The position numbers and the translations under genes were made by a program. Positions 8,648 through 49,423 of a stretch of 64,000 nucleotides of DNA are shown here, piece after piece. The notes under the pieces are model-generated. The model did no database searches. It was given only the letters and a program-made list of their open reading frames with translations, and was not told the origin of the DNA. The DNA is from Sphagnum magellanicum (lineage: Eukaryota > Streptophyta > Sphagnopsida > Sphagnales > Sphagnaceae), in assembly GCA_021904315.1 (NCBI GenBank), contig CM038910.1:18166001-18230000 (forward strand), in the 5' to 3' direction. The first letter of the stretch is position 1. Each line of letters opens with the position of its first letter.

Positions 8648-8803
8648 AAAATATATAAATAAATAAATAAATAAATAAAATGTTAGACCTGCCATGGTAC
8701 TAAGGCATAAGAGAATAGGCACATTCTACCCATTAATGAGTCACTAAGGTGTGGATTGATGCCCATTCTACACATTAATGAGTTACTAGGGCGAGGATGG
8801 ATA
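8648..8803. repeat. (AAAT)n tract and truncated 42-bp minisatellite, U0
   Basis: A short (AAAT)n microsatellite near 8650-8680 is followed by tandem units of about 42 bp built on CATTCTACCCATTAATGAGT and CACTAAGGCGAGGATGGAT. Only two to three units are present here, against four in U1 (30670-30837). The third unit is cut at the U0/U1 junction. Confidence 0.75.
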
Positions 8804-11800: not shown

Positions 11801-12514
11801 ATATAAATGACTATAATTAGTGTTGTTTAGTTATCCAATTTCCAAACAAAACCCCATATATGAATAAAAAATATTCTCACTTCTCAAAAAATAGATGGAT
11901 GTATGTTTTAAGTCCCACATACTTTCATATATAGATGGTTGTGTAGTCAATTTTTTTTTCCCCCCTTTGCCCAGGTTAAGATTTAATTTTTTTTTTCTAA
12001 GATAATGAAATTGTAGGATTAATAGTCGAATGTGTTGTGACTTGAAGCTTTGTGTTCAAGGTTTCTTCTTTCAAATTCTTAAAGAAGGTCCACTAGCGAG
12101 GATCCCAACATTAATTAATATTGAATGGTGATTGTCTTAAATGAGTTGTAATTTTATAAAAAAATCCTGCTTTGTATGGAAAACTCCATGAATGGAATGT
12201 CTAAATGCAATGACTTTTAATAATTTTCCCTCAAAATATGGCAAATTTTGTTCAATGTGAAGATTTCAACAAATTAAACAATGTTGTCTGGAAAATTTTC
12301 TGACACTTTCAACAAATTGTCCTTGAAATTTCTGAAAAATTGAAACATCTGAGTTTTAATTAAGTGACGTTGAATTTGACAGAAGGGTAGGGACGTAGCC
12401 AGCCAGCCCCACCACTACTCTTCAACTTAGAAGTGTAATGTTAGCTTGCAATACCTCAAGCATGGATCATTCATTCCACCGACCAGCATACTAATTATCC
12501 TATAAATCTGGATG
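8804..12514. other. U1 lead-in, AT-rich, no gene seen
   Basis: 8806-10210 aligns with 38285-39690 in U2. The next part (about 10210-11985) has no match in U2, where a different 650-bp stretch (about 39690-40335) occupies the place. Alignment resumes at about 11990 (U1) and 40340 (U2). I see only short spurious open frames, poly(A/T) runs and AT-rich sequence. Confidence 0.6.
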
Positions 12515-12740
12515 TTAACAAGGCACACTGACCCTGACAATAGATAAGATGTTGGACATATATCTACTGTGTCCACACTCTGAACACCAAAAAAATCCAT
12601 TCCAATCTTAACAGTCTAAACACTTTCACCAAAGGAACCAATTCCCCTAATGTGAAACCAGTTCTCATAAGGTGAAACTTCCGAAAGTTGGATCCAATGC
12701 GATAGTCCCTGTCCCTGTGGGAGCGGGCAGGGCCCAACAA
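12515..12740 (+). repeat. Left inverted-repeat arm flanking protease copy 1
   Basis: The reverse complement of this block matches 17757-17988, about 85% by eye. Shared words include GACTATCGCATTGGATCC, GGACACAGTAG and CCTTGTTA at the outer end. The arms enclose the whole protease gene with its upstream region. The same pair is present in U2 (40881-41108 and 46548-46779), so the arrangement predates the duplication. Confidence 0.8.
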
Positions 12741-15030
12741 AGAAAAAGTGGCACCTGACTCCTAAATGCAGCAGGGCTTCAAAAGTCGGCAATTAACTCT
12801 GATTAGTGATCTCATTCTTTTTGCTGCGTTCAAGTTTTTATTTCTCCACGCATTAAAAGTCTACATTCACTCAAAATTTTCTCCCAAAATATTAAAAAAC
12901 TGTTTTGTTCTCTTCTTCCTTCAAACCCACAAGTGTTTGAAAGAAAAGAAGGACAAAACGCTGCTTGAGAAATTGGAATCGCGTACATCCACTTGACTCC
13001 ATGAAGACAAGTAATTCAAAGTACGATTTTGTTGTGTTCGTCACCAGCTCCGTACCAAATCAGTAGCTTAGGCCACAGTAAACCAGCACACACAAGCTCA
13101 CCAGGAAGGATGATGGATGGTAAGTTGTTAAGAAACAGTTTTCTGTTAGCTTCCAGTTCCCTAGCTAACCATGGTGGTTAGCTCAATTGCGTATTTTTTA
13201 ACCCATGGTGGTTAGCCCAGTTACCTTTTTTTTTACTACCTGTCTACAAGCAATCAACAAGTAGATGTTCATGGGTAGCAGTAAAAGAAGCCCTTTCATA
13301 TGTGTATAAAACCTACTTACCTAGTTGTTATCTATTTTCCTACCTATCTATCTATATATTTGAAACCTATTTCTTACCAAATTGGTTACCAAGGTGAAAG
13401 CATATACAAACTCAGTTGAAGTTCATCCACATCTGAGTCATAACAGGCATCCTCCAGTGGATGGTGTGGTCATGGGTGTTGGTTCATTGTGGCCAGCATG
13501 TTAGACATAAAACACAAGGTATTTGAAGTATATTCTACAGACCACGGTATGAAGCTGAAGTTTCCTTCCGCCCAAAAGGGAACTTTTAGAAAACGCCACC
13601 TCTTTTTTTTTTTTTTTGCCCCCTCAATACCAGCCTCTTTTCGTCTTTATTCCCATGTGGGCCTTAAATTGTCTCAAGAATGTCATGCTCCTGGCTGGGG
13701 ATTTACCACCTCGACATTAGGTGAATCACCCATGGGGAGATTTTTAACAAGGTGGAAATTCTCGCATTATCACCAAATGCAAAATGGTACAAAACTACTC
13801 CTGCATTTCCTTTCTCATGTCTGCCCAGTTTCCCGATAAAATGGGTGTGATGAAATCTCTTGAGTGATGAAATTTTGCCTTAAATTCATTACACACCCAA
13901 CATCTATATTTCAGGAGTCCAGATGTGTTTGGGCATCATCCATATTTTTTTGAAAAAATATGATTCAGAGTAAGGGTAGATAGTGAAAAATAATTTTTGA
14001 TGATGGTTGCTGATGAGATTTTGATGACATAATGTGTGATTCATATTAATTAGATCATGGGTGAGATCACAACTTTTTTGCTTTTTTTTATAGGAGCCAT
14101 ATTGATTGACCAATCAGCAATTTTTTTGGGAGCATTGGGCATGCCCCAATAGAAGCACCTCTTTGGCCCCCAATTGCAAAATAGAAACAAATGTGGACCC
14201 CTAAATTTCACCTTGTCTAGTTTATAGAATGGGAGTTGAACTTTGGGCAAACCATATGGGATAAGACCCAGGTGCAATTGGGAACATCTTGGGGAATGCA
14301 TCTAAGAACACTTTGGGAACTTGGGAACTCTTCTGGAACTTATCCCTGTCCCTGGCCCCTTCAAAAAAAAAGAAAAAGAAACTGGATCATTCATGAGTGC
14401 ATGCTGAGCCTTCTAATTGCCTGCATGAAATTTCTTTTTCCAAAACTGTTGGTCACCATTTTTGGCCTGGGCTAATGGCACGGGCAGAAATTTGGGGACA
14501 TAGTGAAAAAAGAATGCATTTAAGACCCACGCCCTATCTCATGTTGGGGGGGTTCATGTTCTGAAATATTCAAAATTTGAGACTGTCTAACTCCCGTGTT
14601 TTTTTTGTTTTTTTTTCCTTTTTCAGTGAAACAAATTTTTAAGTACTTCGAAAAAATCGACAGATTGTTAGTGGCAAGGTACCTATTAGTGATGTAAATG
14701 ACTAGATATGGTACGCGGGAAAAATTGATCTAGATACGAATTATTACTGTAGGAGACCGCGTGCGTGCTCTTGCCGCGTGCAACAAATTCAAAGAAGTGC
14801 ATAAATTTGGAAAGTGTCAATTTGACGCAACCGCAGCGCTTTGGGTTTTCCAACTCGATTACATGTCTAGATCATGTATGAAAAGCACGACTGAAGAGTT
14901 GCAAATTACTCACCAGCTAGTACAGTTCTAGAGCTCGCAGAAAGCTGTCTACTAGAAAGTGTACTTGACAAGTAGCTAGTTAGTCCTGAAAGGGGTACAG
15001 CAGCATGTCAGATGCAAGCGGTTCAAACTC
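12741..15030. other. Upstream region of protease copy 1
   Basis: This is non-coding as far as I can see, but highly similar to 41109-43820 in U2. It contains the small palindromes at 13163-13215, several poly(T) runs and GA-rich words. Short open frames here (for example 13489-13839) are broken by indels in the other copy and are not genes. Relative to U2 it lacks about 430 bp at 14550. Confidence 0.6.
13163..13215. repeat. Two tandem palindromes
   Basis: AGCTAACC-ATGGT-GGTTAGCT at 13163-13183 is a near-perfect hairpin. A second, slightly shorter copy (TTAACCCATGGTGGTTAG) lies about 35 bp downstream. Both are kept in U2 near 41535-41590, with one base change in the first flank. Confidence 0.6.
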
Positions 15031-15036
15031 ACTCAT

Positions 15037-15058
15037 TATATATAAATTCTTATAAATT
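15037..15058 (+). promoter_or_regulatory. TATA-box candidates, protease copy 1
   Basis: TATATATAAAT at about 15037-15047 and TATAAATT at 15051-15058 lie about 115-135 bp upstream of the ATG at 15174, a plausible distance for a plant core promoter. In U2 the first box is changed to TACATATAGA while the second is kept (43838-43845). Confidence 0.45.
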
Positions 15059-15173
15059 TTGTGAATTTTGCTCTTAAGTTCATGAATTGCAATTCATACG
15101 CAATAACTTCTACTGCAATCAGCTAGTTAAGGAGACAGCAGGCTTATAAGTTTGAGATATATTATTATATCCC

Positions 15174-17419
15174 ATGGAGTCTTTACTGATCAGACGAGCT
15201 CCAGGGGTTTTGGTATTGGTGGTTGCCATCATGCTTCAGGCTAGTACCCAGATTTGTCTAGGGAGGCAAATCCATTCAACAGGAAGCGGGAGACCAAGTG
15301 ATGATGAGACGTCGACCACCCAAGAGGTAAATTATGACAAGGTGCAAACTACATTGAACTCTCTTTTGTTGGTACTGTGGTCCCCCGGCCCTGGGTCTCT
15401 GCGAACTTGTGAACCACTATTGCAGTGACTTGAAGAATCTCTAGATGGTATATGATTCATTCAGGGATTGATATGATTAGTATTAATCTAGAACGTGAAC
15501 CCAGCTCCTACGGAATGAACTCATGACGTGATCTAGATCAAGCTCCTGACCACATCTTTGGTAGCTGCTTAATTTTACAGGTCTTGAAATCGTACTGGAT
15601 ACATAGAGATTATCCGGACTCGCCCGCGTCAGCTGCAAGTACATACAACACTAGCTCGCAATCAGAAAGGATTGCGGCGGCGGCGAGAAGGAGCTTGACA
15701 CGTTCGGAGTATTTCTCACGTAGAGTACTGGACGCCAGCTCTAGCGGAAATTTCGACAGTCCGGTGGAAGCAGTAGTGGTAGGGGGTGAATACGCGATGG
15801 CAGTGTCCGTAGGCACACCTCCGCGACAATTCATTGTCGACGTTGATACTGGAAGTGACCTTGTGTGGCTGAATTGTGAGCCTTGCATCCAATGTATCGT
15901 CAACGCTACTGATAAGCCGTTTGATCCCACCCAGTCCACCTCGTACCAGCAAGCCTCGTGCAACGACCCCGCGTGCACGGTACTATCCCTTTCTGAGGTC
16001 ATTTTTTAAAATTTGAATCATTCTCAAAACTCGCGGAGAGTTCTGAAGGAATTAGTGGCTGACCTACGACTTCATTCCACATATCCCACAAGTTTAAATC
16101 CATGATCGTCGACTCAAATTGTTTGCAGTGCTGTTGTTTGTTTGTATCAGTTATTTCCATATCAACCTACTTCATGTGGCAGCACGGGTGCCTGTGGTTA
16201 CTTCTACCCATACGGAGAAGGCATATACTACAGTTACACCAGCGGTATTTTAGGATATGAGACGTTCACCTTCACGGCCATAGACGAATCCTCCTTTGCT
16301 ATCGGAAATGTCAGGTTTGGATGTGGTCAAAATGAGAGCCTCACAGGATTCACAGTATTTGACGGATTTGCGGGTCTAGGTCAGGGCAGTTTCTCTCTAC
16401 CTAGCCAGTTGTCCTTGCTCGGCTTTACCGACATTTTCTCCTACTGCTTGATCCCCTTTGACGGCACCGCGGCGAATCATAGCACTTTCTACTTCGGAGT
16501 TCCTGAAACCAACATCTCGACCTACACACCCATTTATAGCAACGTAGTCTCTCCACTTGCACCATATTATTACGTGAACGTGACTGGAATCAGCGTAGGA
16601 GGTGTATTGTTGAACATTCCAGCGGACTTTTTTGACATAAGCCCCACTGATGGCAGCGGTGGCGTCATCTTCGACTCCGGCACCACTTACACGCTGTTGA
16701 TAGGCGTTGCCTACGACGCCGTCCTCCAGGTGAGTCATGTCATGATCATCAGGTTCATAGTGTCCACAACAGACATAATTAATTTCCTTGTTGCCATCAG
16801 TAGGCCGTCACACTCTCAACTACAAACTGACTCCAAAAACAATTGAAAATCCCCAAAAAAAGAAACTACCATATGACTAATTTGTGTAGCAATTATCAGA
16901 CCCGCAGTAGGACAGTAACGTTCCCTTTCCATTAGGTTTTTGTGTGCATCACAGTTACACAGTGCGCTGTGATCACAGCAGCCTAATGGAAAACCATTGA
17001 CATGGGGCCTTGATCACAGCAGCCTGATAGAAGGATGTCCTAAGTCTAACGCACGTGTATTGCGCACGGGTGGACTTTCTTGTGTGGGTGGTTGCAGGAA
17101 TTTAAGAATCAGTTCAATTTCCCACCGTATGAAGTAAGTGGTTCACCCGTCGTATGCTTCGATGTTAGTGGCGCCAGTGCGATCTCCATTCCGAATATAG
17201 TATTCCATTTGGAATCTGTCTGGTGGAGAACCTGTCGACTTCGTGCTATCTCTGGACAACGTACTTCTCCCGTACTCGGAAACCGTAAAATGTCTTACGA
17301 TCCTGTCACTTAATCCTCCTGGCGAAATGATCATTGGTAACACAGCACAAGCGAATCACGAGGTGGTTTTCGACCGTGTGAACCGCCAAATTGGTTGGGC
17401 TTCCACAACATGCACCTAG
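15174..17419 (+). pseudogene. Nepenthesin-like aspartic protease, copy 1 (frameshifted)
   Basis: A family A1 (pepsin-like, nepenthesin group) secreted aspartic protease gene with four exons, all joined in phase 0: 15174-15326, 15581-15979, 16151-16729 and 17098 onward. All introns are GT-AG. The product has an N-terminal signal peptide (residues 1 to about 30). The first catalytic Asp is in DTGSDLVW (about residue 140), followed by a Cys-rich insert (CEPCIQC). The second catalytic Asp is in DSGTTYT (about residue 359). Relative to copy 2, exon 4 has lost two bases near 17220 and reaches TAA at 17311-17313. The conserved C-terminal strand (IIGN...IGWAS) is still visible out of frame up to TAG 17417-17419. 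The protein would have about 448 residues with a foreign tail and is probably inactive or misfolded (inference). Confidence 0.88.
16925..16995 (+). repeat. Hairpin within protease intron 3
   Basis: The arm TTTCCATTAGG is mirrored by CCTAATGGAAAA about 45 bp later. An inner ATCACAG pairs with CTGTGAT. A further partial direct copy of GATCACAGCAGCCT follows at about 17012. It may be a tiny foldback insertion. It is identical in U2 because it lies within the 629-bp identical block. Confidence 0.55.
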
Positions 17420-17756
17420 CACCAGCTAGAGTGTAGAAATCTCAATCTATTCTTTCTTTTGATACTGGTATTTATTGTCAAAGTAAAGCTCGCGCAAGTG
17501 TGTGCTTAGTGCCCAGTACTACTAGACTAATTGATCAGGAAGATCACGAATTAGTTACTGTGTAATTTGCTTTCGTTGTACAGTATTGCCACGTCTAGAG
17601 CACTGTAAGTGTGTGTTTACTACTCTAAGACTAATTGATCAGGAATTAGTCCTGATCAAGTAATTGTTGTGTTCACTCTAGTCTGATCAAGTTCTATTTG
17701 CCATCAAGCATGAAAACAGGTGTGCATGCAGCTGGATGGAGTTTTGCACCTACAGC

Positions 17757-17988
17757 TTTATTGGGCGCTGCCCCCACAGGGACAGCGACTATCGCATTGG
17801 ATCCAACTTTTGGAAGTTCTACCTTATTAGAACCAGTTTCACATTAGGTGAACTGGTTTCTTTGGTGAAAGTGTTTGGACTGTTTAGATTGGAAGGGATT
17901 GTTATGGTGTTCAGAGTGTGGACACAGTAGGTAGATGTACAGCATCGTATCTACTGGTAGGGCCAGCGTGTCTGTGATGCCTTGTTAT
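17757..17988 (-). repeat. Right inverted-repeat arm flanking protease copy 1
   Basis: This is the mirror copy of 12515-12740. The two arms encode similar peptide strings when both are read outward in the same sense (shared RIGSNFWKF and FTLGELV), which confirms the inversion. The right arm has about 11 extra bases (TCTGTGATG region) before the outer CCTTGTTA. No target-site duplication was found outside the arms. Confidence 0.8.
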
Positions 17989-18203
17989 TGTTTGCCTCTA
18001 ATCTTCAAACCCACAAACCACTCCCTTTTTATTTTCTATGTGTGTTTTGAGGGATCTCCCCCAACAGAAGAACCCTAGGGGATGTATCCTCGGGGAGCTC
18101 CCCAATTTGCTATGTTCCCATGTTCCCATGGAAATATTTCTTTTCCACAAAACGGGAAAGGAGTGAGGAAGTCAAAAGAGAGTTGTTTACTTAAGGGCCG
18201 GTT

Positions 18204-18657
18204 TGTTGTGTGTGAAGCCTTATCAATTAGTTGCACCGTCAAGCTGATCAATTAGTTGCACCATGAAGCCTGATCAATTAGTTGCACCGTCAAGCTGATG
18301 AATTAGTTGCACTGTGAAGCCTGATCAATTAGTTGCACCGTCAAGCCTATCTATTAGTTGCATTGTTGTCTAAGTTTACTAGGAGTTGGTGAACTTGAAA
18401 CTATATAGTTTTTTCATTGTAAGTATCTATGTGTGGTGTGGAGTGCTAAGTAGAGAAGTGAGAAATTGTGAAAGTTGTGTGATAGTTCTTCATTGTTGTA
18501 TTCATTGATTTCATAGTGTGAGTTGAGTGCGGGTGCGCTCCGTGGATGTAAGCTTTTGTTGAACCACGTAAAATCTTGTGTCCTTGGTTTTTTTTTTTGT
18601 TTGTGTGCATACCCCCTAAGTTGAATAATTTTTTATTTTTTTATTTTTTTTCTAACA
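18204..18657 (+). repeat. Copia 5' LTR
   Basis: It begins TGTTGTGTGTGAAGCC and ends TTCTAACA, followed directly by the primer binding site. It is 454 bp long. The first third is a tandem array of 25-26-bp units. A TATA-like CTATATAG lies near 18401; the 3' LTR has a small deletion at the same place. Confidence 0.95.
18216..18375 (+). repeat. 25-26-bp tandem repeats within the LTR
   Basis: About six units of ATCAATTAGTTGCACCGT followed alternately by CAAGCTG or GAAGCCTG. The same array is in the 3' LTR (about 23270-23420). The alternation makes a roughly 51-bp higher-order unit. The position near the LTR start suggests a U3 enhancer-like array (inference). Confidence 0.8.
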
Positions 18658-18658
18658 A

Positions 18659-18671
18659 TTGGTATTAGAGC
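18659..18671 (+). other. Copia primer binding site
   Basis: TTGGTATTAGAGC lies one base after the 5' LTR end. It matches the initiator-methionine tRNA complement used by plant Copia elements (TGGTATCAGAGC) with one change. Confidence 0.85.
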
Positions 18672-19136
18672 ATAGGTTTCAAGGCTTAGGGTGTATAGGA
18701 TCTAGAGTTGAAGATTCTGTAGCACAAGGTTCTAGGAGTTCGGAACAGCAACTGTGCAACTGATGCACCGCCGGAGCAGCCACCGCCGTCCAGTTGCCGT
18801 CAGCGAGTTGAACGACACCACCACCACCAAAAGAAGCGGAAAGAGACGATCTTCAAGATTGTCTTCTTGGTCGTCATCAATCGAGTACCGGAAAATCCTC
18901 AAAATGGCCGTCAAAGTTTTTGAACCGAACGGTTATTATCAAATCTACGTTGATCCGTCGTGAATCTAAGAAAACCAACACCACCAGTAGACTCAGCGTG
19001 GTGAAATCTTCCAGATCCGGTTCCTTTGACATTGAAACGGAAAGTTTTGGATTTCGGCCGGATTCCATCCAGGTTTGATTTATTTTTTTCGTTAACCAAT
19101 TCAGATTGCTTGCCGTTCTTAGTTTGAGTTAGAGCA

Positions 19137-22100
19137 ATGGGGTCCGAAAAGGATACATACAAGATAGAGAAATTCAACGGGACGAATTTCAGCTTTTGGA
19201 AGATGCAGATGGAGGACTATCTACACCAGAAGGACTTGTATTTGCCGATAGTAGAAAAACCGAAGGACATGTCCGATGAAGAATGGGTTGTCGAACGTAA
19301 ACCAGGAGGTATGACTGACGCGCAGTGGATGGTTTTGGACCGGAAAGCGCTAGGAGCAATTTGACTTAGTTTGTCGAAATCAGTCGCCTTCAACATCAAG
19401 GGTCAAGAGATAGCGACAAATCTCATGAAGGCCCTATCGAATTTATATGAGTAACCTTCTATGGCAAGGAAGGTCCATCTGATAAAGAAATTAGTAAATC
19501 TGAAAATGTCAGAAAATCAGAGCTTCAAGGAGCACCTGAATGTGTTCAATGAGGTAACAGATGGGTTAAATTCGGTTTCTATAGTATTTGATGATGAAGT
19601 GTTGGCAGGCATAATTCTAGGCCAGATGCCAGAGAGTTGGAGCACGACATGCCAATCGATCACCAACTCATTTGGAAAAGAAAAGTTAGCCTTCCAACAG
19701 GTTATAGATATGATTATGACCCAGTAAATCAGGATGCATGAAGAGGGATCAGGGGCATCATCTTTAGCACTAAACATGGAAGGTAGAGAAAGTAGAAACA
19801 TGAATTGGAACAGAAATCAACGAGGTAGATCAAAGTCAAGAGGAAAATCCAAGTCCAGGAATCGTCAAGGCAACAATTCAGGTAATCAGCAGCAAAACAA
19901 GAAAGACATCGAGTGCTGGAATTGTGGCAAGATGGGTCACTACTCTAGTGAGTGTAAATCTGGAAAGAAGGACGATGGCAAGAGCAGTGCAAATTGTGTT
20001 TCAGAGGAGGCAGACGATTACCTTATTTGCGCATTTGAAAGCAAGATGGAATCTTGGGTGTTAGACTTAGGAGCATCATTCCATGTCACCTCACACATGG
20101 ATTTGTTCGAGAACTATATCTCTGGAAATTTCGGTAAGGTGCATCTTGGTGATGATCAAGCATGCGACATTACCGGGAAAGGAGATGTGAAGATCTAGTT
20201 GAATGGCTAAGTTTGGAAACTCGACAATTTGAGACACGTACCGGACTTGAGAAAGAATTTGATCTCCATTGGGCAGTTAGCATCAGACGGCTATGTGACG
20301 ACTTTCACGGGAGATAAGTGGAAGATCTCGAATGGAGCAATGACAATCGCCCAAGGAACTAAGAACGGGACTCTTTACATAACTACCGATGGGTGTGGTT
20401 TGGCCGCAGTGGCCGAAGGTAAAGAGGATCCAAATTTGTGGCACCAAAGGTTTGGGCACATGAGTAGTTAGGGATTGAAGTGTATGCAATCGAGAGGTAA
20501 ACTGCCAGGATTGAAGTCCATTGAGGTTGATTTCTGTGAGAGTTACATTCTTGGGAAGCAGAAACGAATGAGCTTCAAGAAGGTCGGAAAAACACCGGCA
20601 AAGGAGAAGCTGGAACTAGTGCACACCAACGTATGGGGTCCAGCTTCAGTCTCATCAATCGGAGGTAAACACTATTTCGTCACTTTCATCGACGACCATT
20701 CCAGGAAGGTATGGGTTTACTTTTTACAACACAAGTTTGATGTGTTTGAAGTTTTCAAGAAATGGAAAGCTATGGTTGAGAATGAGACAGGTTTGAAGAT
20801 CAAGAAGTTACGTTTAGACAATGGTGGAGAGTACGAAGACAACGAGTTCAAGAAGTTTTGCTACCAGAGCGGGATAAAGCTCATAAGGACGATGCCAGGT
20901 ACACCGCAGCAGAATGGTACTCCAAAACGTATGAACAGGACATTAACTGAGAAAGCTAGAAGCATGCGCCTACAGTCGGGGTTGCTGAAGCAGTTCTGGG
21001 CAGAAGCAGTCAGTACAGCAACATACTTGATCAACAGAGGACCATCAAAGCCTTTGGACCTTGCTATACCAAAAGAGATCTGGACTGGGAAGGAGGTAAA
21101 ACTTTCTCATTTGAAAGTGTTTGGGTGTGTATCTTATGTACATGTAAGTGATCATGCAAGGAGCAAGTTGGACACCAAATCAGTGAAATGCACCTTGGTG
21201 GGTTATGGCGAAGACGAGTTTGGATATAAACTCTGGGACGACCAAAACCGCAAGATGATCAGAAGTAGAGATGATGTCTTCAATGAAAAGGTCATGTACA
21301 AGGACAGAAACACAGAGAAGTCTGAGCAGAGAGAACCAGACTATTTTGGGCTAGAAGATGTATCAGGTGGTAGGATCGTGGAACATGGTAGTCAAAAAGA
21401 TGAAGAACAAAGAGTGCAGCCTCAGGTTGAAGAACTTATACCACAAGATGAAATTCCAACACCACACAGTTCGATTGGTCAGAGAATACTAAATCCATAG
21501 GTTGGGAATGCTTTGAGAAAATCCCCAACGGCCCAAAGTACATTACGAAAATCCACTCGCCCACATGTACCAAACAGGAGGTACTTGCAATACTTGTTAT
21601 TGACAGATGCAGGAGAACCTAAATGCTATGATGAAGCATGTCAGGGAGAAGATGTGAGCAAGTGGGAGCTTACAATGAAGGAAGAGATGAAATCGCTTGT
21701 ATCCAATCAAACTTGGGAGTTAGCCAAGTTGCCTGAAGGAAAGAAAGCCCTACAAAACAAATGGGTGTTTCGAATCAAAGAAGAACATGATGGTTCCAAG
21801 AGATACAAGGCGAGACTAGTGGTCAAAGGCTTTCAGCAAAAGGAAGGTATTGATTACACTGAGATTTTTTCTCCTGTTGTTAAACTAATTACAATCCGAT
21901 TAGTGTTAAGCATTGTCGCAACAAAGGGGTTATATCTTGAGCAGTTGGATGTCAAAACTGCATTTCTTCATGGAGATTTGGAGGAAGAGATATACATGCA
22001 GCAACCAGAGGGGTTTGTGGAAAAGGGCAATGAAGAGATGGTTTGCAGATTGACGAAGAGCTTGTATGGTTTGAAACAAGCTCCCCGACAGTGGTACAAG

Positions 22101-23159
22101 AAGTTCGATGGGTTTATGCAAAGGAATGGGTACTTCAAATGCAATGCTGACCATTGCTGCTACTTTAAGAAAGTTAAATCAAGTTTCATAATATTGTTAC
22201 TTTATGTTGATGACATGTTAGTAGCTGGTGCAAATTTGGAAGAGATTAACAATTTGAAGAAGCAATTGTCAAGTGAATTCGAAATGAAGGATTTGGGTGC
22301 AGCAAAGCAAATACTTGGAATGAGGATTAGCAGAGACGAACATGGAGGTACTTTGTAGCTGTCTCAAGCAGAGTACATTCGTAAGGTGTTACAGAGGTTC
22401 AACATGAGGGATGCAAAGCCAGTCAAAACACCTTTAGCTAGTCACTTTAGATTGTCCAAGGAACAGTGTCCAGAGACAGATGAAGAGAAGGACTTCATGG
22501 CTAGAATACCATATGCCTCAACCATTGGAAGTCTGATGTACGCCATGGTTTGCACGAGACTAGACATTTCCCATGCAGTGGGAGTTGTGAGCAGATACAT
22601 GTCTAATCCAGGCAAGCAACACTGGGAAGCAGTGAAGTGGATCCTAAGGTACTTGCGAGGTACGACAGAGAAATGTCTAACCTTCAGAAAAGATGAGCTC
22701 AAGCTGGAAGGTTATGTGGATTCAGATTTTGCTGGAGAGGTGGATCATAGGAGGAGCACCACAGGATATGTGTTCACATTTGGGAGTACAACTATTAGTT
22801 GGGTTTCTCAGTTGCAAAAGATAGTGACAATATCTACAATTGAAGCGGAATATGTGGCTATGATTGAAGCTAGCAAGGAGCTTATATGGTTACAAGGGTT
22901 ATTAACAGAGTTAGGATTCGAACAAGAGATGAATGTGTTGCACAGTGATAGTCAGAGTGCGATACACTTGGCAAAGAATTCGGCGTTCCATTCTAGGACC
23001 AAGCACATAGACCTGCGTTACCATTTCATTCGGTTGTTAATCGAGGATGGGGTATTGAAGCTTGTGAAGATTGCAGGGAGCAAGAATCCGGCTGACATGT
23101 TAACCAAACCAGTCACTACGGAGAAACTGGAGTTGTGCGCAGCTTCAGTGGGTCTTTAA
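19137..23159 (+). pseudogene. Copia gag-pol polyprotein with eight in-frame stops
   Basis: One frame runs through the entire 4-kb region without a frameshift. It is broken only by stops at 19362, 19452, 19725, 20196, 20208, 20469, 21498 and 22356; the natural end is TAA 23157. Domains in order: gag with the CCHC knuckle CWNCGKMGHYSSEC (about 19914-19955); aspartic protease with DLGA in place of DSGA (20064); integrase zinc finger H-H-C-C with the last Cys changed to Tyr (20544); integrase core with the first Asp changed to Asn (HTNVWGP, 20628) and the catalytic Glu changed to Lys (20925); reverse transcriptase with an intact YVDD (22203-22214); and RNase H ending TKHIDLRYHF. It cannot encode an active element now. 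Confidence 0.95.
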
Positions 23160-23257
23160 GGTTGAAAACAGAGAAGAATGAGTGCGCCGTACCTATCCAC
23201 TAGTCATCGAAGGAAGAGGAAGAAGTCCACCCGAGTTTTAGTCTTCAAGTGGGAGAT

Positions 23258-23696
23258 TATTGTGTGTGAAGCCTTATCAATTAGTTGCACCGTCAAGCTG
23301 ATCAATTAGTTGCACCGTGAAGCCTAATCAATTAGTTGCACCGTCAAGCTGATCAATTAGTTGCACCGTGAAGCCTGATCAAGTAGTTGCACCGTCAAGC
23401 CTATCTATTAGTTGCACTGTTGTCTAAGTTTAGTAGGAGTTTTTTACTTGAAACTAATTGTAAGTATCTATGTGTGGTGTGGAGTGCCAAGTAGAGAAGT
23501 GAGAAATTGTGAGTTGTGTGATAGTTCTTCACTATTGTATTCATTGATTTCATAGTGTGAGTTGAGTGCGGGTGCGCTTCGTGGATGTAAGCTTTTGCTG
23601 AACCACGTCAAATCTTGTGTCCTTCGTTTTTTTTGTTGTTTGTGTACATACCCCTTAAGTCGAATAATTTTTTTTTTTTAAATTTCTTTTCTAACA
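23258..23696 (+). repeat. Copia 3' LTR
   Basis: 439 bp long, starting TATTGTGTG (canonical TG changed to TA) after the purine tract AAGTGGGAGAT and ending TTTTCTAACA. It differs from the 5' LTR by roughly 20-25 substitutions and a few small indels, including loss of the TATA-like word. Confidence 0.95.
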
Positions 23697-23701
23697 CGGT
23701 T

Positions 23702-25290
23702 CCTGTACTTGTGCATTCTCCTGAGGTTTGGGAACACCCTTGCATTGGGCTCACACCCTTGGGTGCCCCTCCCTAAGGAGAAGGCACTGGTAGGGGGAAC
23801 CTCCCGTACAACTAAACCCACATGTCGTGATAAGCATGGTTCCAGTTTGTGTACCCCAAGTTGCTTCAGTTTGTCCTCTCCTGCAATATTATTTCACTAT
23901 TGAGATTCCATTGTCCACTTGCAGCAATATGTTATGATAGTGGTGGACTCATTCCAAGCCTACCGGGCCTGTTTGGAATGGGTCAAGACCACTATGGGCC
24001 TACTAGAGGCTCATTCCACATCGGAATGTGGCAGCTAGCGCATGTCAAGGTCTACATGGGTCCCATTCTACCTAGGAACACAGTGGCACCAGTAACTATT
24101 GCCTTTCCTTTAGGTGGTGAAGGAATTTACCAGGGCCTGTTCCAGAGTATAACTGGTTTTCCCAATCATTAATTCCCATTCCAAGCGTGTTCTCTAAGTG
24201 AATTCAAGTTACCAGTGAAACTTATCGCACCATAAGTGGCACTAGCATATGGCTTCTTGCCCACCTGAATAGGAAACTCAAACCAGCTACACATTAATAA
24301 TAAAAAGATGAACTAAACCAGTAAGTGGCATTACTAAGGTCCACAAAGAGTTACATTATTTGATGATGCATTCCCCCACTAACATACACCATAAGCAGGA
24401 ATTATACATTATTCAAAAAGCAACTTCGCCATCCATGGTCCATACCTAGTTCACCTACTAGTCCTTAAATATCTGAAAATAATTTTAGAAAGCACATTGC
24501 CTATTAAACTTATATCAATAAAGTAATCCTCACATTGGGCTTCATTGTACTCAATCACTCTTCCTTTTTGAGTTATCCATAAGGTTTCGGAAAGTGAGAA
24601 TCATTCCTCAAAAGTAAGGATCAACATTCTCAAGTGGTCATCATAGTTTTTATTCTAATGATTGTACAATCTACTTAGGTTTCCATCCCTAGATTAGGGG
24701 CTGCCTAGAGTAGGGGGCTAACTAGGTTAGGATTTATGTAAGACCAGATTACCTAGGGCACATTTCAAAGCTACATAAGGCCTACTTAAGCATTATCTAA
24801 GATAAGGACAATAAATTTAAGTTTAAATAAAAGGTTACATAGAGATTATTAAAAAGTTAATTCATGGTTGGGTTTCAAAAAGGAGTGTCTAATTGAAAAA
24901 GATTTGAAAAGGATAATTCCAGATTTTCACATTGTTCAAGATATTGCAACTATGATATATTGAGAAAACATTTGATTCCTAGTATTAAAATATTGTGAAA
25001 AAAAGCTTAAAAAAAGGCCGAATAATTATTTGATGTTATATAGAAGTTTTTCTAGGCTTTTGATGAATTTATAGTCAAATGATTGTCCATATTAAAGATT
25101 TATTGTAAAGGAATGTATAAAATGATGCAATTGATTTAAAACTTTTTGTATAGGAAAACCATGTTTCCTTTTATGCAACTACATGTTCATTAGGTCAATT
25201 TGATGAAAAAATAAATCATATGAAAATCTCAAAGTTTTGAAATTTTGAAACAAAGGGCTATAAGGGAAATTATTCTTTTATTAAATCATT
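23702..25290. other. Intergenic block, U1
   Basis: Aligns closely with 46978-48600 in U2. It begins with a GC-richer 480-bp part and then turns AT-rich. Near 24660-24830 there is a short run of AGGTTAGG/CCTAGGG words resembling, in inverted sense, the degenerate repeat at 28025. No gene is seen; short open frames are not conserved. Confidence 0.55.
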
Positions 25291-38280: not shown

Positions 38281-40880
38281 GTTAACCTTTTGCAAAATGC
38301 ATTAGAAAAGTGGTTAACCATAGGGATAACAATCATCCAAATGTGACCATTTTTGCATTCACATTATTGGAATATGTAAAGTATGTAAAAAGTTATAAGG
38401 ATCATTAGCAAAGGGCATCCAACAATCACAAATGTTGTTAGTCAAAGGGTTTTTTTAACAACTGTAATTACATTGGTGAGCTTCATTCCATCAAATTTAA
38501 TTTTTCATCCATGAAAAATTTGTCCATATTCATATAAAAATCATCCATTCATCCACTGAAAATTCATAGATGAAATTATTTCAATACTCATCCATGGAAT
38601 TGAGATTATTTTAATGCTAAAAACTTGTGGAGTTGGCAACCTGGGAATGCAAGCATGCCAATGTGACAGAACTTAGTTCATGACAACAAGAAAAATATCT
38701 CTTCAAAATAACAATACTTTTCACAACCAACATCCTTTTCATATTTATTTTTACAAAAACAAAATGGGTTTTTTCAAAAAGAAATTTGACTTCTCTCAAT
38801 AGATATTCAAATTTTTTTGCAAGGAAGAATGTTTTGAGATGGTCCTAATGGGAAGGATACACATTTGTATGTAGCACCATTTTATTTCTCCTAAGACTTA
38901 TTAAGAAAGAAAAATATTTTAAAGAATAAATTTATATGAAACATATGAAAATCACATGTATGTGTCTGTGCTAAAATTGAATTGGGATTTTGAGGTTTTA
39001 ATATCAGATTTATGTAATTTTAAGGATAAAATATTTTTTTTACTTCAATCATGAGTTTTTTTGTTAACAAATAGAATCATTACTTTTAATTGTGAGATTT
39101 TTGAATTGACATTAATAACCTTTGATTAATTCAAAGCTTTTCCCCTAGTCATAGGGTTCTAATCATAATTATAATGGGGAAAATTTTAATTTAATAAAAT
39201 AGAAATTTATTTATTTGTACTCCTTACATTTATTCTAAGCATGTCCTCACCAAGAAGTGTGATAAAAGAGCTCCAAAATTTCTTAAACAATTTGTGCCCA
39301 CATTAAGAAAAGCTCTCTTACCCTACAATTTAACAATAAATTATTGTGAAAATGTTTTTTCGCCACTACCCAAGGCTAGTAATGATAGACACAAGGAATG
39401 CACTAAATAAAAATGTTTGTTTGAAATTGACCAAATGTTTAATAATTGGTCCAAGAGGTGAGACTTTAATAATCTTTCACTTGTATTGTGAGGTCTTTTA
39501 TTGTATAAAGTGAGGAGGAAAAAATTATGATTGTATCTTGGACATGGAGATATTGGTGTAGGCACAAATATGGTGTCACCACTAGAAATGCTTCTAGAAA
39601 TCTTAGTTTTTAGTGTAATAATATTAAGAATTAAATTAAAAGAATAGAAATCATATTTGAAAGTAGAAGTAGAAGAGCAAGAATAAATTTTTGGTTATGT
39701 ATAGCTCCCATACATAGATAGTGTTTTTTTTCCAAAACTTTCACAACCTGGCAAAACAAAGGGGTTGGTGATTGCAACAAAGGGTTTTTAAAAAAAAGTA
39801 CACAAAATTCACAATGTTTTGAGGGAAAAAATCCAAAAGTCCCTCGATTTAGACAATGTGTTCTTGAAGGTCATTAGAATTCGGTAGGATTCTCAAAACA
39901 TTTAATGTCATTCCAAGACGATTGTCATTTATTGCTAATTAATGCTTGGGATCCTAGCCTAGCCATTGCACCTACTTGAGGAATTTGAAAAAAACACTAT
40001 ACATAACTAGACATATGTCTAGATATCCCAAATATAGATATGCATCCAGTTAATTGAAGTGTCTTCCATGAATGGATATGAATAATTAAAAATCAGTGAT
40101 CAATTTATATCTAGAGGATATGTATAAATTTTTTTTGTGAAATTGATGCAATTTTAGGATATGCATTTATGCATAAACATAACTAGCCAACCTTGTATAA
40201 CTTGACAACACTGATAACAACTAGATGACATAAGCCATAGATTTGAATAATCATTTAGTTGCCAAAGCATATATGATTAAAGTTTTAATCATGAATGAAG
40301 TTATAAATTTCATTTTTTGACATAAGGGTTGAAAATCAAGGTTAAATTTTTTTTCAAAGATAATGAAATTGTAGGATTAATAGTCGAATGTGTTGTGGCT
40401 TGAAGCTTTGTGTTCAAGGTTTCTTCTTTCAAATTCTTAAAAAAGGTCCACTAGTGAGGATCCCAACATTAATTAATATTGAACGGTGATTGTCTTAAAT
40501 GAGTTGTAATTTTATAAAAAATCCTGCTTTGTATGGAAAACTCCATGAATGGAATGTCTAAATGCAATGACTTTAAATAATTTTCCCTCAAAATATGGCA
40601 AATTTTGTTCAATGTGAAGATTTCAACAAATTAAACAATGTTGTCTGGAAAATTTTCTGACACTTTCAACAAATTGTACTTGAAATTTCTGAAAGATTGA
40701 AACACCTGAGTTTTTAATTAATTGATGTTGAATCTGACGAAAGGGTAGGGACGTAGCCAGCCAGCCAGCCAGCCCCACCACTCCTCTTCAACTTAGAACT
40801 GTAATGTTAGCCTGCAATACCTCAAGCTTGGATCATTCATTCCACCGACCAGCATACTGGTTATCCTGTAAATCTGGATG
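38281..40880. other. U2 lead-in, AT-rich, no gene seen
   Basis: 38285-39690 matches 8806-10210. About 39690-40335 is U2-specific. 40340-40880 matches 11990-12514. A (CAGC)n stretch near 40757 is longer than in U1, consistent with slippage. No supported gene. Confidence 0.6.
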
Positions 40881-41108
40881 TTAACAAGGCACACTGGCCC
40901 TGCCAATAGATAAGATGTTGGACATCTATCTACTGTGTCCGCACTCTGAACACAAAAACAATCCCTTCCAATCTTAACAGTCTAAACACTTTCACCAAAG
41001 GAACCAATTCCCCTAATGTGAAACGAGTTCTAATAAGGTCAAACTTCCAAAAGTTGGATCCAATGCGATAGTCCCTGTCCCTGTGGGGGCGGGCAGGGCC
41101 CAACAAGG
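40881..41108 (+). repeat. Left inverted-repeat arm flanking protease copy 2
   Basis: The reverse complement matches 46548-46779, better conserved than in U1 (shared GGACACAGTAG, TAGATGT.CAACA and AGGGCCAG). This is the same arrangement as around protease copy 1. Confidence 0.8.
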
Positions 41109-43820
41109 AAAAAGTGGCACCCGACACCTAAATGCAGCAGGGCTTCAAAAGTCAGCAATTAACTCTGATTCGTGGTCTCATTCTTTTTGCTGCGTTCAAG
41201 TTTTTATTCCTCCACGCATTAAAAGTCTACATTCACTCAAAATTTTCTCCTAAAATATTAAAAAACTGTTTTATTTTCTTCTTCCTTCAAACCCACAAGT
41301 GTTTGAAAGAAAAGAAAAGAAGGACAAAACGCTGCTTGAGAAATTGGAATCGCGTACATCCACTTGACTCCATGAAGACAAGTAATTCAAAGTACGATTT
41401 TGTTGTGTTCGTCACCAGCTCCGTACCAAATCAGTAGCTTAGGCCACAGTAAACCAGCACACACAAGCTCACCAGGAAGGATGATGGATGGTAAGTTGTT
41501 AAGAAACAGTTTTCAGTTAGCTTCCAGTTCCCTAGCTAACCATGGTGGTTAGCTGAGTTGCGTATTTTTTAACCCATGGTGGTTAGCCCAGTTACCTTTT
41601 TTTTTACTACCTATCTACAAGCAATCAACAAGTAGGTGTTCATGGGTAGGTAGTAAAAGAAGCCCTTTCATATGTGTATAAAACCTACTTACCTAGTTGT
41701 TATCTATTTTCCTACCTATCTATCTATATATTTGAGACCTATTTCTTACCAAATTGGTTACCAAGGTGAAAGCATATACAAACTCAGTTGAAGTTCATCC
41801 ACAACTGAGTAATAACAGGCATCCTCCAGTGGATGGTGTGGTCATGGGTGTTTCGTTCATTGTGGCCAGCATCTTAGACATAAAACACACGGTATTTCAA
41901 GTATATTCTACAGACCGCTGTATGAAGCTGAAGTTTCCTTCCGCCCAAAAGGGAACTTTTAGAAAACGCCACCTCTTTTTTTTTTTTGTGCCCCCTCAAT
42001 ACCAGCCTCTTTTCGTCTTTATTCCCGCGTGGGCCTTAAATTGTCTCAAGAATGTCATGCTCCTGGCTGGGGATTTACCACCTCGACATTAGGTGAATCA
42101 CCCATGGGGAGATTTTCAACAGGGTGGAAATTCTCGCATTATCACCCATGCAAAATGGTACAAAACTACTCCTGCATTTCCTTTCTCATGTCTGCCCAGT
42201 TTCCCGATAAAATGGGTGTGATGAAATCTCTTGAGTGATGAAATTTTGCCTTAAATTCATTACACACCCAACATCTATATTTCAGGGGTCCAGATGTGCT
42301 TGGGCATCATCCATATTTTTTTGAAAAAATATGATTCAGGGTAAGGGCAGATAGTGAATTTTTTTTTTTGATGATGATTGATGATGAGATTTTGAGGACA
42401 TAGTGTGTGATTCATATTAATTAGATCATGGGTGAGCTCAAAACTTTTTTGCTTTTTTTTATAGGAGCCATATTGATTGACCAATCAGCAATTTTTTTGG
42501 GAACATTGGGCATGCCCCAATAGAAGCACCTCTTTGGACCCCCAATTGCAAAATAGAAGCAAATGTGCACCCCTAAATTTCACCTTGTCTAGTTTATATA
42601 ATGGGAGTTGAACTTTGGGCAAACCATATGGGATAAGACCTAGGTGCAATTGGGAACATCTTGGGGAATGCATCTAAGAACACTTTGGGAACTTGGGAAC
42701 TCTTCCGGAACTTATCCCTGTCCCTGGCCCCTTCGAAAGAAAAGAAAAAGAAACTGGATCATTCATGAGTGCATATTGAGCCTTCTCATTGCCTGCATGA
42801 AATTTCTTTTTCCAAAACTGTTGGTCACCATTTTTGGCCTGGGCTAATGGCACGGGCAGAAATTTGGGGACATAGTGAAAAAAGAATGCATTTAAGACCC
42901 ACGCCCTATCTCATGTTGGGGGCCGATGGCGGGAGAGGGGGTTTTACCCCACTCTATATTTTGCCGTCTAAAACAGAGAATCCCCATATTACGTGGAAAT
43001 ATATGCAAATGTGGGCCACAGCGAGGTCCAGAACTTTGGGCCGGGCCCTTCAAACGCTGGCTTGCTTGTTGACTTTTATGTTCTTTGTTGCCCTGAGATG
43101 GCGGAGCTCTCCTTTCTCTTTAGCTTAATCGGTACCGATGACCACCCATGGCCTAGTCACTAAGCAAGGATGTAAGTCGCCATGGCTATGGACAATCAAC
43201 TTATGACTGATGGATATGACTTAATTAATTCTCAAAAGGGTTAGGGAGAAAAGAGAAATCTCTTGAGTGATAATTTGCAAAAAAACAATCCTAGAGAGCT
43301 GTAGAGAGTAAATGTATTTTGCCAAAACGAAAAGTGCAGAGCTTGGTAATTATGTTCTGAAATATTCAAAATTTGAGACTCCCGTGCTTTTTTTGTTTTT
43401 TTTCCTTTTTCAGTGAAACAAATTTTTAAGTACTTCGAAAAAACCGACAGATTGTTAGTGGCAAGTTACCTATTGGTGATGTAAATGACTAGATATGGTA
43501 CCCGGGAACAATTGATCTAGATACGAATTATTACGGTAGGAGACCGCGTGCGTGCTCTTGCCGCGTGCAACAAATTCTAAGAAGTGCATAAATTTGGAAA
43601 GTGTCAATTTGACGCAACCGCAGCGCTTTGGGTTTTCCAACTCTATTACATGTCTAGATCATGTATGAAAAGCACGAGTGAAGAGTTGCAAATTACTCAC
43701 AAGCTAGTACAGTTCTAGAGCTCCCAGAGAGCTGTCTACTAGAAAGTCTACTTGACAAGTACCTAGTTAGTCCTGAAAGGGGTGCAGCAGCATGTCAGAT
43801 GCAAGCGGTTCAAACTCACT
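41109..43820. other. Upstream region of protease copy 2
   Basis: Matches 12741-15030 in U1. About 430 bp (about 42920-43349) are absent from U1. That block is GC-richer and holds TTTACCCCACTC, GGGCCGGGCCC and a GGTACCGATGACC word. It shows no convincing gene and could be either a U2 insertion or a U1 deletion. Confidence 0.6.
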
Positions 43821-43837
43821 CATTACATATAGATTCC

Positions 43838-43845
43838 TATAAATT
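43838..43845 (+). promoter_or_regulatory. TATA-box candidate, protease copy 2
   Basis: TATAAATT about 116 bp upstream of the ATG at 43961, in the same position as the second box of copy 1. The stronger upstream box of copy 1 is degraded here. Confidence 0.4.
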
Positions 43846-43960
43846 TTGTCAATTTTGCTCTGAAGTTCATGAATTGCAGTGCATAGGCAATAACTTCTAC
43901 TGCAATCAACTAGTTAAGGAGACAGCAGGCTTATTAGCTTGAGATATATTATTATATCCC

Positions 43961-46205
43961 ATGGAGTCTTTAATGATCAGACGAGCTCCAGGGGTTTCGG
44001 TATTGGTGGTTGCCATCATGCTTCAGGCTAGTACCCAGATTTGTCTAGGGAGGCAAATCCTTTCAACAGGAAGCGGGAGACCAAGTGATGATGAGACGTC
44101 GACCACCCAAGAGGTAAATTATGACAAGGTGCAAACTACATTGAACTCTCTTTTGTTGGTACTGCGGTCCCCCGGCCCTGGGTCTCTGCGAACTTGTGGA
44201 CCACTTTTGCAATGACTTGAAGAATCTCTAGATGGTATATGATTCATTCAGGGATTGATATGATTAGTATTAATCTAGAACGTGAACCCAGCTCCTACGG
44301 AATGAACTCATGACGTGATCTAGATCAAGCTCCTGACCACATCTTTGGTAGCTGCTTAATTTTACAGGTCGTGAAATCGTACTGGATACATAGAGATCAT
44401 CCGGACTCGCCCGCGTCAGCTGCAAGTACATACAACACTAGCTCGCAATCAGAAAGGATTGCGGCGGCGGCGAGAAGGAGCTTGACACGTGCGGAGTATT
44501 TCTCACGTAGAGTACTGGACGACAGCTCTAGCGGAAATTTCGACAGTCCGGTGGAAGCAGTAGGGGGTGACTACGCGATGGCAGTGTCCATAGGCACACC
44601 TCCGCGACAATTCATTGTAAACATTGATACTGGAAGTGACCTAGTGTGGCTGAATTGTGAGCCTTGCATCCAATGTATCGTCAACGCTACTGATAACCCG
44701 TTTGATCCCACCCAGTCCACCTCCTACCAGCAAGCCTCGTGCACCGACCCCGCGTGCAAGGTACTGTGCAAAATCCCTTTCTGAGGTCAATTTTTTTATT
44801 TGAATCATTCTCAAAACTCGCGGAGAGTTCTGAAGGAATTAGTGGCTGACTTACGACTTCATTCCACATATCCCACAGGTTTAAATCCATGATCATCGAC
44901 TCAAATTCTTTGCTGTGCTGTTGTTTGTTTGTATCAGGGATTTCCAAATAACCGTACTTCATGTGACAGCACGGGTGCCTGTGGTTACTTCTACCCATAT
45001 GGAGAAGGCGTATACTCCAGTTACACCAGCGGTATTTTAGGATATGAGACGTTCACCTTCACGGCCATAGACGGATCCTCCTTTGCTATCGGAAATATCA
45101 CGTTTGGATGTGGTCAAAATGAAAGCCTCACAGGATTCACAGGATTTGACGGATTTACGGGTCTAGCTCAAGGCAGTTTCTCTCTACCTAGCCAGTTGTC
45201 CTTGGTCTCAGGCTTTACCGACATTTTCTCCTACTGCTTGATCCCCTTTGACGGGACCGCGGCAAATCATAGCACTTTCTACTTCGGAGTTCCTGAAACC
45301 AACATCTCGACCTACACACCCATTTATAGCAACGTAGTCTCTCCACTTGCACCATATTATTACGTGAACGTGACTGGAATCAGCGTAGGAGGTGTATTGT
45401 TGAACATTCCAGCGGACTTTTTTGACATAAGCCCCACTGATGGCAGCGGTGGCGTCATCTTCGACTCCGGCACCACTTACACGCTGTTGATAGGCGTTGC
45501 CTACGACGCCGTCCTCCAGGTGAGTCATGTCATGATCATCAGGTTCATAGTGTCCACAACAGACATAATTAATTTCCTTGTTGCCATCAGTAGGCCGTCA
45601 CACTCTCAACTACAAACTGACTCCAAAAACAATTGAAAATCCCCAAAAAAAGAAACTACCATATGACTAATTTGTGTAGCAATTATCAGACCCGCAGTAG
45701 GACAGTAACGTTCCCTTTCCATTAGGTTTTTGTGTGCATCACAGTTACACAGTGCGCTGTGATCACAGCAGCCTAATGGAAAACCATTGACATGGGGCCT
45801 TGATCACAGCAGCCTGATAGAAGGATGTCCTAAGTCTAACGCACGTGTATTGCGCACGGGTGGACTTTCTTGTGTGGGTGGTTGCAGGAATTTGAGAATC
45901 AGTTCAATTTCCCTGTAGTAAGAAGTTCACCCACCGTATGCTTCGATGTAAGTGGCGCCAGTGCGAACTCCGTTCCGAATATAGTATTCCATTTGCAATC
46001 TGTGTCTGGCGCAGAATCTGTCGACTTCGTGCTATCTCTGGAAAACGTACTTCTCCCGTCTTCGGAAACCGTAGCATGTCTTTCGATCCAATCACTTAAT
46101 CCTCCTGGCGTAATGATCATTGGTAACACAGCACAAGCGAATCACGAGGTGGTTTTCGACCGTGTGAACCGCCAAATTGGTTGGGCTTCCACAACATGCA
46201 CCTAG
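43961..46205 (+). CDS. Nepenthesin-like aspartic protease, copy 2 (intact)
   Basis: A secreted family A1 aspartic protease, predicted at 481 residues. Exons 43961-44113, 44368-44760, 44938-45519 and 45888-46205 (with stop) all join in phase 0 across GT-AG introns. Residues 1 to about 30 form a signal peptide, with a hydrophobic core around APGVSVLVVAIM. Residues up to about 115 look like a propeptide (Ala/Ser-rich, RIAAAARRS). The mature core has catalytic Asp138 in DTGSDLVW, a Cys-rich nepenthesin-type insert (CEPCIQC...CTDPAC) and a flap region SGILGYETFTF. Catalytic Asp358 is in DSGTTYT, and the core ends with IIGNTAQANHEVVFD and IGWAS. Such enzymes act in the apoplast or vacuole. Several NxS/T sites suggest glycosylation. 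The first ATG was chosen because the signal peptide follows at once. Substrate unknown. Confidence 0.9.
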
Positions 46206-46547
46206 CACCAGCTAGAGTGTAGAAATCTCAATCTATTCTTTCTTTTGATACTGGTGTTTATTGTCAAAGTAAAGCTCGCGCAAGTGTGTGCGTAGTGCCC
46301 AGTACTACGAGACTAATTGATCAGGAGGTTCTGATCATGAATTAGTTAATGTGTAATTTGCTTTCGTTGTACAGTGTTGCCACGTCTAGAGCACTGTAAG
46401 TGTGTGTTTACTACTCTAAGACTAATTGATCAGGAATTAGTCCTGATGAAGTAATTGTTGTGTTCGCTCTAGTCTGATCAAGTTCTATTTGCCATCAAGC
46501 ATGAAACCAGGTGTGCATGCAGCTGGGTGGAGTTTTGCACCTACAGC

Positions 46548-46779
46548 TTTATTGGGCGCTGCCCCCACAGGGACAGCGACAATCGCATTGGATCCAACTT
46601 TTGGAAGTTTTACCTTATTAGAACCCGTTTCACATTAGGTGAACTGGTTTCTTTGGTGAAAGTGTTTAGACTGTTTAGATTGGAAGGGATTGTTTTGGTG
46701 TTCAGAGTGTGGACACAGTAGGTAGATGTACAACACCTTATCTACTGGTAGGGCCAGCGTGTCTGTGATGCCTTGTTAT
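46548..46779 (-). repeat. Right inverted-repeat arm flanking protease copy 2
   Basis: Mirror of 40881-41108 and homologous to 17757-17988. Both arms read as the same peptide string in opposite orientation (RIGSNFWKF, TRFTLGELV, FRLEGIV-like), supporting an inverted pair of about 225 bp. No target duplication was found outside. Confidence 0.8.
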
Positions 46780-46959
46780 TGTGTGCCTCTAGTCTTCAAA
46801 CCCACAAACAACTCCCTTTTTGTTTTCTATGTGTGTTCAGAAGAACCCTAGGGGATGTATGCTTGGGGAGCTACCCCAATTTTCGATGTTCCCATGTTCC
46901 CATGGAAATATTTGTTGTCCACAAAATGGAAAAGAAGTGAGGAAATCAAAAGAAAGTTG

Positions 46960-48680
46960 TTGAGTTAAGGGCCGGTTCTTGTACTTGTGCATTCTCCTGA
47001 GGTTTGGGAACACCCTTGCATTGGGCTCACACCCTTGGGTGCCCCTCCCTAAGGAGAATGCACTGGTAGGGGGAACCTCCCGTACAACTAAACCCACATG
47101 TGGTGAGAAGCATGGTTCCAGTTTGTGTACCCCAAGTTGGTTCAGTTTGTCCTCTCCTGCAATATTATTTCACTATTGAGATTCCATTGTCCACTTGCAG
47201 CAATATGTTATGATAGTGGTGGACCCATGCCAAGCCTACTGGGCCTCTTTGGAATGGGTCAAGACCACTATGGGCCTACTAGAGGCTCATTCCACATCGG
47301 AATGTGGCAGCTAGCGCATGTCAAGGTCTACATGGGTCCCATTCTACCTAGGACACAGTGGCACCAGTAACTATTGCCTTTCCTTTAGGTGGTGAAGGGA
47401 TTTACCAGGGCCTGTTCCAGATTGTAACTGGTTTTCCCAACCATTAATTCACATTCCAAGCGTGTTTTCTAAGTCAATTCAAGTTACAAGTGAAACTTAC
47501 CGCACCAAAAGTGGCACTAGCATATGGGTTCTTGCCCACCTGAATAGGAAACTCAAACCGGCTACATATTAATAATAAAAAGATGAACTAAACCAGTACG
47601 TGGCATTCCTAAGGTCCACAAAGAGTTACATATATTTGATGATGCATTCCCCCACTAACATACACCATAAGCAGGAATTATACATTATTCAAAAAGCAAG
47701 TTAGCCATCCATGGTCCATAGTAGTCCATACCTAGTTCACCTACTAGTCCTTAAATATCTGAAAATAATTTTAGAAAGCACATTGCCTATTAAACTTATA
47801 TCAATAAAGTAATCCTCACATTGGGCTTCATTGTACTCAATCACTCTTCCTTTTTGAGTAATCTATAAGGTTTCGGAAAGTGAGACTCACTCCTTGAAAG
47901 TAAGGATAAACATCCTCAAGTGGTCATCATAGTTTTTACTTTAATCACAGTACAAGCTACTTAGGTTTCCATCCCTAGATTAGGGGCTGCCTAGAGTAGG
48001 GAGCTAACTAGGTTAGGATTTATCTAAGGCCGGGTTACCTAGGGCACATTTAAAAGCTACCTAAGGCCCACTTAAGCACTATCTAAGATAAGGACAATAA
48101 ATTTAAGTTTATATAAAAGGTTAGATAGAGATTATTTAAAAAGTTCACTCATGGTTGGGGTTCCAAAAAGGAGTGTCTAATTGAAAAAGGATTGGAAAAG
48201 ATAATTTCAGATTTTCAGAGTGTTCAAGATATTGTAACTATGATATATTGAGAAAACATTGTGTTCCTATTATTAAAATATTAAGAAAAAAAGCTTAAGA
48301 AAAGGTCCAATAATTATTGGATGTTATATAGAAGTATTTTTGGCCTTTGACTAATTTATAGTCAAATTAGTGTCCATATTATAGTTTTTTTTATGAAGGA
48401 ATGTATAAATTGATGTAATTGATTTCAAACTTTTTGTATAAGAAAACCATGTTTCCGTTTATGCAACTACATGTTCATTAGGTCAATTTGATGAAAAATA
48501 AATCATATGAAAGTTTCAAAGTTTTGAAATTTTAAAACAAAGGGCTACAAGGGAAGTTATTCTTTTATTAAATCATTTGACTGATTATTTTATATTCATT
48601 AGATTCAAAAATCTTTAACTTTAGATTTAAATTGCATGTGCAAAAAATTATCATGCAAAAAAACATGTTTAGTTGATACT
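46960..48680. other. Intergenic block, U2, with empty Copia site
   Basis: Matches the sequences on both sides of the U1 Copia element without the element, including GGGCCGGTTCTTGTAC at about 46970-46985. The rest matches 23702-25390. No gene is seen. Confidence 0.65.

Positions 48681-49378: not shown

Positions 49379-49380
<2 letters not shown>

Positions 49381-49420: not shown

Positions 49421-49423
<3 letters not shown>

Follow-up and report, generated by a model that had tools for sequence, protein, structure and literature searches.

Two copies of an aspartic protease gene lie in the 64,000-nucleotide stretch of the Sphagnum magellanicum genome analyzed here (contig CM038910.1, positions 18,166,001 to 18,230,000), which we refer to as the window. 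The copies belong to duplicated arms that have diverged by several percent, and yet both carry one block of exon and intron sequence that is the same in every letter. The locus thus raises a simple question: how can a silent intron be more alike between two gene copies than the coding exons on either side of it? The features that bear on this question are listed in Table 1.

Table 1. Coordinates of the duplication, the protease genes, and the identical block in the window
Feature	Positions	Strand	Basis or detail
Segmental duplication arm, unit 1 (background)	11980..18203	+	alignment
Segmental duplication arm, unit 2 (background)	40338..46977	+	alignment
Aspartic protease gene, copy 1	15174..17419	+	exons 15174-15326, 15581-15979, 16151-16729, 17098-17419
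Aspartic protease gene, copy 2	43961..46205	+	exons 43961-44113, 44368-44760, 44938-45519, 45888-46205
Identical block, copy 1 (inferred conversion tract)	16475..17103	+	0/629 differences to 45265-45893
Identical block, copy 2	45265..45893	+	0/629 differences to 16475-17103
Second catalytic motif, DSGTT codons	16673..16687	+	inside block
Intron 3 of copy 1	16730..17097	+	whole intron within block
Most diverged stretch beside block, exon 4	17104..17325	+	22 substitutions in 216 aligned columns
Ty1/copia-type LTR element, unit 1 only	18204..23696	+	5-bp TSD CGGTT; empty site in unit 2; RVT_2 and rve Pfam

Two protease genes in a segmental duplication

Alignment of the two duplication arms (11980-18203 against 40338-46977) yields 235 substitutions and 21 indels, one of them 424 bp long, over 6181 columns including the block. 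With the block removed, the substitutions number 235/5552, which places the arms ~4% apart. Both protease copies comprise four exons separated by GT-AG introns of 254, 171 or 177, and 368 bp, with exon ends picked by eye from the splice signals and the reading frame. Copy 2 has an intact frame of 481 amino acids. A Pfam scan of copy 2 only identified TAXi_N (5.3e-45; 154.2 bits against a curated cut-off of 30), TAXi_C (1.6e-30; 106.5 bits against 23.9), and Asp (4.3e-18). By sequence, the closest solved chains are the aspartic proteases chymosin and beta-secretase 2, with E values of ~1e-7. DTGS codons begin at 15845 and 44626 and DSGT codons at 16673 and 45463, and we take these to be the catalytic Asp motifs. 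The N-terminus appears signal-like by eye. We presume that the genes encode plant A1-type proteases of the nepenthesin-like/CND41-like kind, with which they share both Pfam halves, the two catalytic motifs, and the signal-like N-terminus.

At 17217, copy 1 is missing 2 bp that copy 2 has, and its exon 4 is thereby out of frame. If this difference is real, copy 1 is probably a pseudogene, judging from its reading frame. The rest of exon 4 is open in the shifted frame, suggesting that the lesion is either young or an assembly error. The first-pass annotation had described exon 4 as shifted and substituted, and the alignment agrees, with this 2-bp indel accompanied by 22 substitutions in the 216 aligned columns of 17104-17325.

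Unit 1 alone contains a Ty1/copia-type element, whose LTRs differ at 26/440 positions (5.9%). The empty site in unit 2 and this LTR divergence independently indicate that the two units have been separate for several percent of change. The LTR divergence does not differ significantly from that of the duplicated flank with the block excluded (26/440 versus 235/5552; P = 0.11), and we reject the idea that it contradicts the age of the duplication. As it is as large as the flank divergence, the element seemingly inserted not long after the duplication.

The window holds further repeats. Three-copy repeat blocks, 81-90% alike in blastn pieces of >500 bp, lie on either side of the protease units (3784-8804, 25286-30753, and 48573-55454), giving the region the look of an array built from large units. 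A 212-amino-acid open frame is duplicated at 31475-32113 and 56500-57138; the end of the first copy, the one scanned, aligns with the initial 66 of the 164 positions in the RNase_T exonuclease family (PF00929, 1.2e-9). A repeat of ~220 bp, 86-90% alike among its copies, bounds the protease part of each unit as an inverted pair (12521-12742 and 17756-17973 in unit 1; 40887-41106 and 46547-46764 in unit 2).

An identical block of exon and intron

Comparison of the two copies confirms the initial observation of 629 bp without a single difference or indel: 16475-17103 and 45265-45893 are the same letter for letter. The unit alignment also reproduces the reported edges, G/A at 16474/45264 and A/G at 17104/45894. 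The block consists of 255 bp of exon 3, the whole of intron 3, and 6 bp of exon 4, and the intronic share had been correctly given as 368 bp, which is the length of intron 3 in both copies. It is the longest of the 12 exact direct repeats of at least 100 bp in the window, followed by repeats of 204, 158, and 144 bp. Its two copies run colinearly in the same orientation at a spacing of 28.8 kb. The block includes the second catalytic motif, as had been noted, with the DSGT codons starting at 16673; nothing shows that this motif is the reason for the tract. Chance may supply some identical bases at either edge, so the true ends of any tract would fall inside 16475..17103.

We evaluated the identity against the divergence of the duplication as a whole. 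We scattered the 256 differences at random in 20,000 trials: the longest stretch free of differences spanned 327 columns and the mean maximum was 144, so that no trial reached 629; the analytic expectation for a clean run of this length is 7e-10. Sliding windows give the same picture: 430 overlapping windows of 629 columns outside the block (step of 10) contain 13 to 40 events each, with a median of 26, versus 0 inside. Both the runs test and the sliding-window alignment had been proposed by the first-pass annotation as checks on its reading, and the block stands out in each, as it does in the rate comparisons. The differences are overdispersed, with a variance of 7.2 and a mean of 4.4 per 100 columns. 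Under overdispersed, gamma-distributed rates with a single rate for the whole block, the probability of zero differences is 1.6e-5.

The contrast is also evident for noncoding sequence taken separately, with 0/368 in intron 3 versus 175/4372 in all other noncoding columns (Fisher P = 9e-7). The earlier statement that a silent intron is more conserved than its coding flanks is likewise upheld, as the 5' part of exon 3 differs by 6.5% and exon 4 by 7.1%. These values bear out the claim of flanks several percent apart for the sequence next to the block, and the claim that exons 1-3 differ at many sites holds for exon 2 and the 5' part of exon 3. Neither claim extends to the gene start, where exon 1 (3/153) and intron 1 (4/254) are little diverged, so that exon 2, intron 2, and the 5' part of exon 3 account for most of the upstream differences within the gene. 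The low divergence of exon 1 and intron 1 together (7/407) weakens the local contrast. Intron 3 contrasts only weakly with intron 1 alone (P = 0.027) and more strongly with introns 1 and 2 pooled (P = 6e-4), while the whole block differs from exon 1 plus intron 1 with P = 0.0014.

Clean runs were also assessed in six other aligned segments of units 1 and 2, with 5000 permutations each. Four show no excess (P = 0.13 to 0.61). The remaining two have runs beyond chance, 136 bp at 24438-24574 (segment S3; P = 0.0044) and 102 bp at 30846-30949 (segment S5b; P = 0.0008), both P values being uncorrected for six tests or for rate variation. A further segment, S4, was left out of these tests and its 20% divergence was discarded, as its ends are poorly matched.

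Probable gene conversion and its alternatives

We consider one recent interlocus gene conversion between the protease copies to be the best explanation of the block, with a probability of roughly 0.83 on the sequence comparison. The identical run of 629 bp exceeds the permutation maximum of 327 for a pair of this divergence, and it spans silent positions, namely intron 3 and synonymous sites (0 differences over 61 sites). The first-pass annotation had regarded local gene conversion as the simplest explanation, which the clean block, its sharp edges, and an intron more alike than the adjoining exons all support. The segmental duplication would first have accumulated its ~4% divergence. One protease copy would then have suffered a break and been repaired with the other as template, so that ~0.6 kb running from exon 3 through intron 3 into the first few bases of exon 4 was overwritten without crossover. 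We infer the break repair, its occurrence as a single event, and its recency. About 27 substitutions would be expected in 629 bp and none is seen, suggesting that the tract is recent; if rates are even, its age would be at most about 11% of that of the duplication (95% upper bound).

Strong constraint could in principle produce the same identity if the block combined a catalytic core with a functional intronic RNA or an enhancer. The second catalytic motif does sit in the block, and intron 3 contains an imperfect inverted repeat of 19 nt (16926-16944/16974-16992, 84% complementary), possibly the remnant of a MITE from its appearance. A self-blastn search of the window (E of 1e-5) matched intron 3 only between units 1 and 2. 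A functional RNA or an unusual fold in intron 3 was considered and rejected, since no Rfam family reaches its gathering score anywhere in the window and the folding z score is -0.29, with 31 of 100 shuffled sequences folding as well. The unchanged synonymous sites likewise argue against constraint, as do the other exons, which give no sign of purifying selection between the copies. With the copy 2 frame applied to both copies, coding differences outside the block comprise 48 nonsynonymous and 12 synonymous changes (dN = 0.056, dS = 0.045), and coding columns outside the block (60/1180) do not differ at a significantly higher rate than noncoding columns (175/4372; P = 0.10). Because dN is close to dS there and the coding columns have not diverged more slowly than the noncoding ones, we regard constraint as a very improbable cause of the block.

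The sole serious rival to conversion is an assembly or polishing artefact, in which the sequence of one copy was written over the other or reads mapped to the wrong copy made the two alike. Near-identical duplicates are a usual place for assembly errors; the identity is perfect, and the 2-bp difference at 17217 could itself be such an error. Yet the window contains no runs of N, and the assembly kept the flanks distinct at 235 substitutions and 21 indels. Homogenization would moreover be expected where the copies are most alike, whereas the densest 222-column window of substitutions, counted without the columns of the block, extends to both sides of it (16449-17305, 23 substitutions); this is an argument rather than a test. 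The window was found by a scan with 5000 permutations (P = 0.013), its width having been picked after the exon 4 cluster was seen. On balance, we consider an artefact unlikely.

The raised divergence beside the block bears on a further alternative, that a third paralogue donated to both copies, or that the flanks received patches from a diverged paralogue and the block retained an earlier state. Divergence in exon 4 and the 5' part of exon 3, taken together, exceeds the noncoding rate of 4.0% (43/634 versus 175/4372; Fisher P = 0.002), and the first part of exon 4 (22/216) differs at 2.5 times the noncoding rate and is followed by 144 identical bases. Replacement of the flanks, or selection, would fit these counts, which come from partitions chosen post hoc. 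Flank replacement alone would not explain why the block, at 0%, falls under the 4% background, and the scheme needs more events than a single conversion. A tblastn search of the window with the copy 2 protein found no third protease copy, returning the two known copies and one chance-level match (E of 5.1). We consider a contribution from a third paralogue very improbable.

We do not claim diversifying selection from these data. The 48 nonsynonymous changes among 60 fit neutrality (P = 0.32) and are incompatible with a ratio of 0.55 (P = 0.006), a value that we picked to represent a constrained copy paired with a free one. It is conceivable, if rather doubtful, that conversion and diversification alternate within one protease, with exchange keeping the core around the second Asp identical while the adjoining exon stretches outpace noncoding sequence. 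The divergence at the edges would then stem either from diversifying selection or from error-prone repair at the borders of the tract. If this edge divergence is real and recurs in other copies, mutagenic borders of conversion would become testable.

Comparison with known systems

Interlocus (ectopic, non-allelic) gene conversion typically leaves what we observe here: a short, fully identical, sharp-edged tract over exon and intron in diverged, colinear duplicates. Nothing distinguishes the protease pair from this pattern except the length of the tract. One report concludes that conversion tracts average on the order of 10^1 to 10^2 bp (PMC3924818). Against that mean, 629 bp is long and counts against conversion, but a single longer tract is still compatible with it.

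If conversion is the correct reading, the block suggests a recent exchange of sequence between a probable pseudogene and its intact neighbor, and any age or phylogeny of these duplicates that was estimated from intron 3 or the 3' part of exon 3 would be wrong. Our literature search on tandem duplication of aspartic protease or nepenthesin genes with gene conversion returned no title on such a tract. A related case is the GOT1Sd/GOT1Sr pair of Tigriopus californicus, in which conversion is reported to link a largely intact copy with a pseudogene-like one, with islands of divergence (PMC3728101). The protease pair resembles it in the proposed exchange between an intact and a pseudogene-like copy. 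It differs in that the GOT1S conversion largely concerns exons and leaves the third intron divergent, while the protease tract holds a whole intron. For Arabidopsis RPP8, one report describes intergenic exchange among paralogues with a low level between tandem duplicates (PMC6771003), indicating that closeness alone is no guarantee of conversion. Set beside these systems, the protease tract is an ordinary, textbook-type case of a well-known process, and nothing about it departs from that kind.
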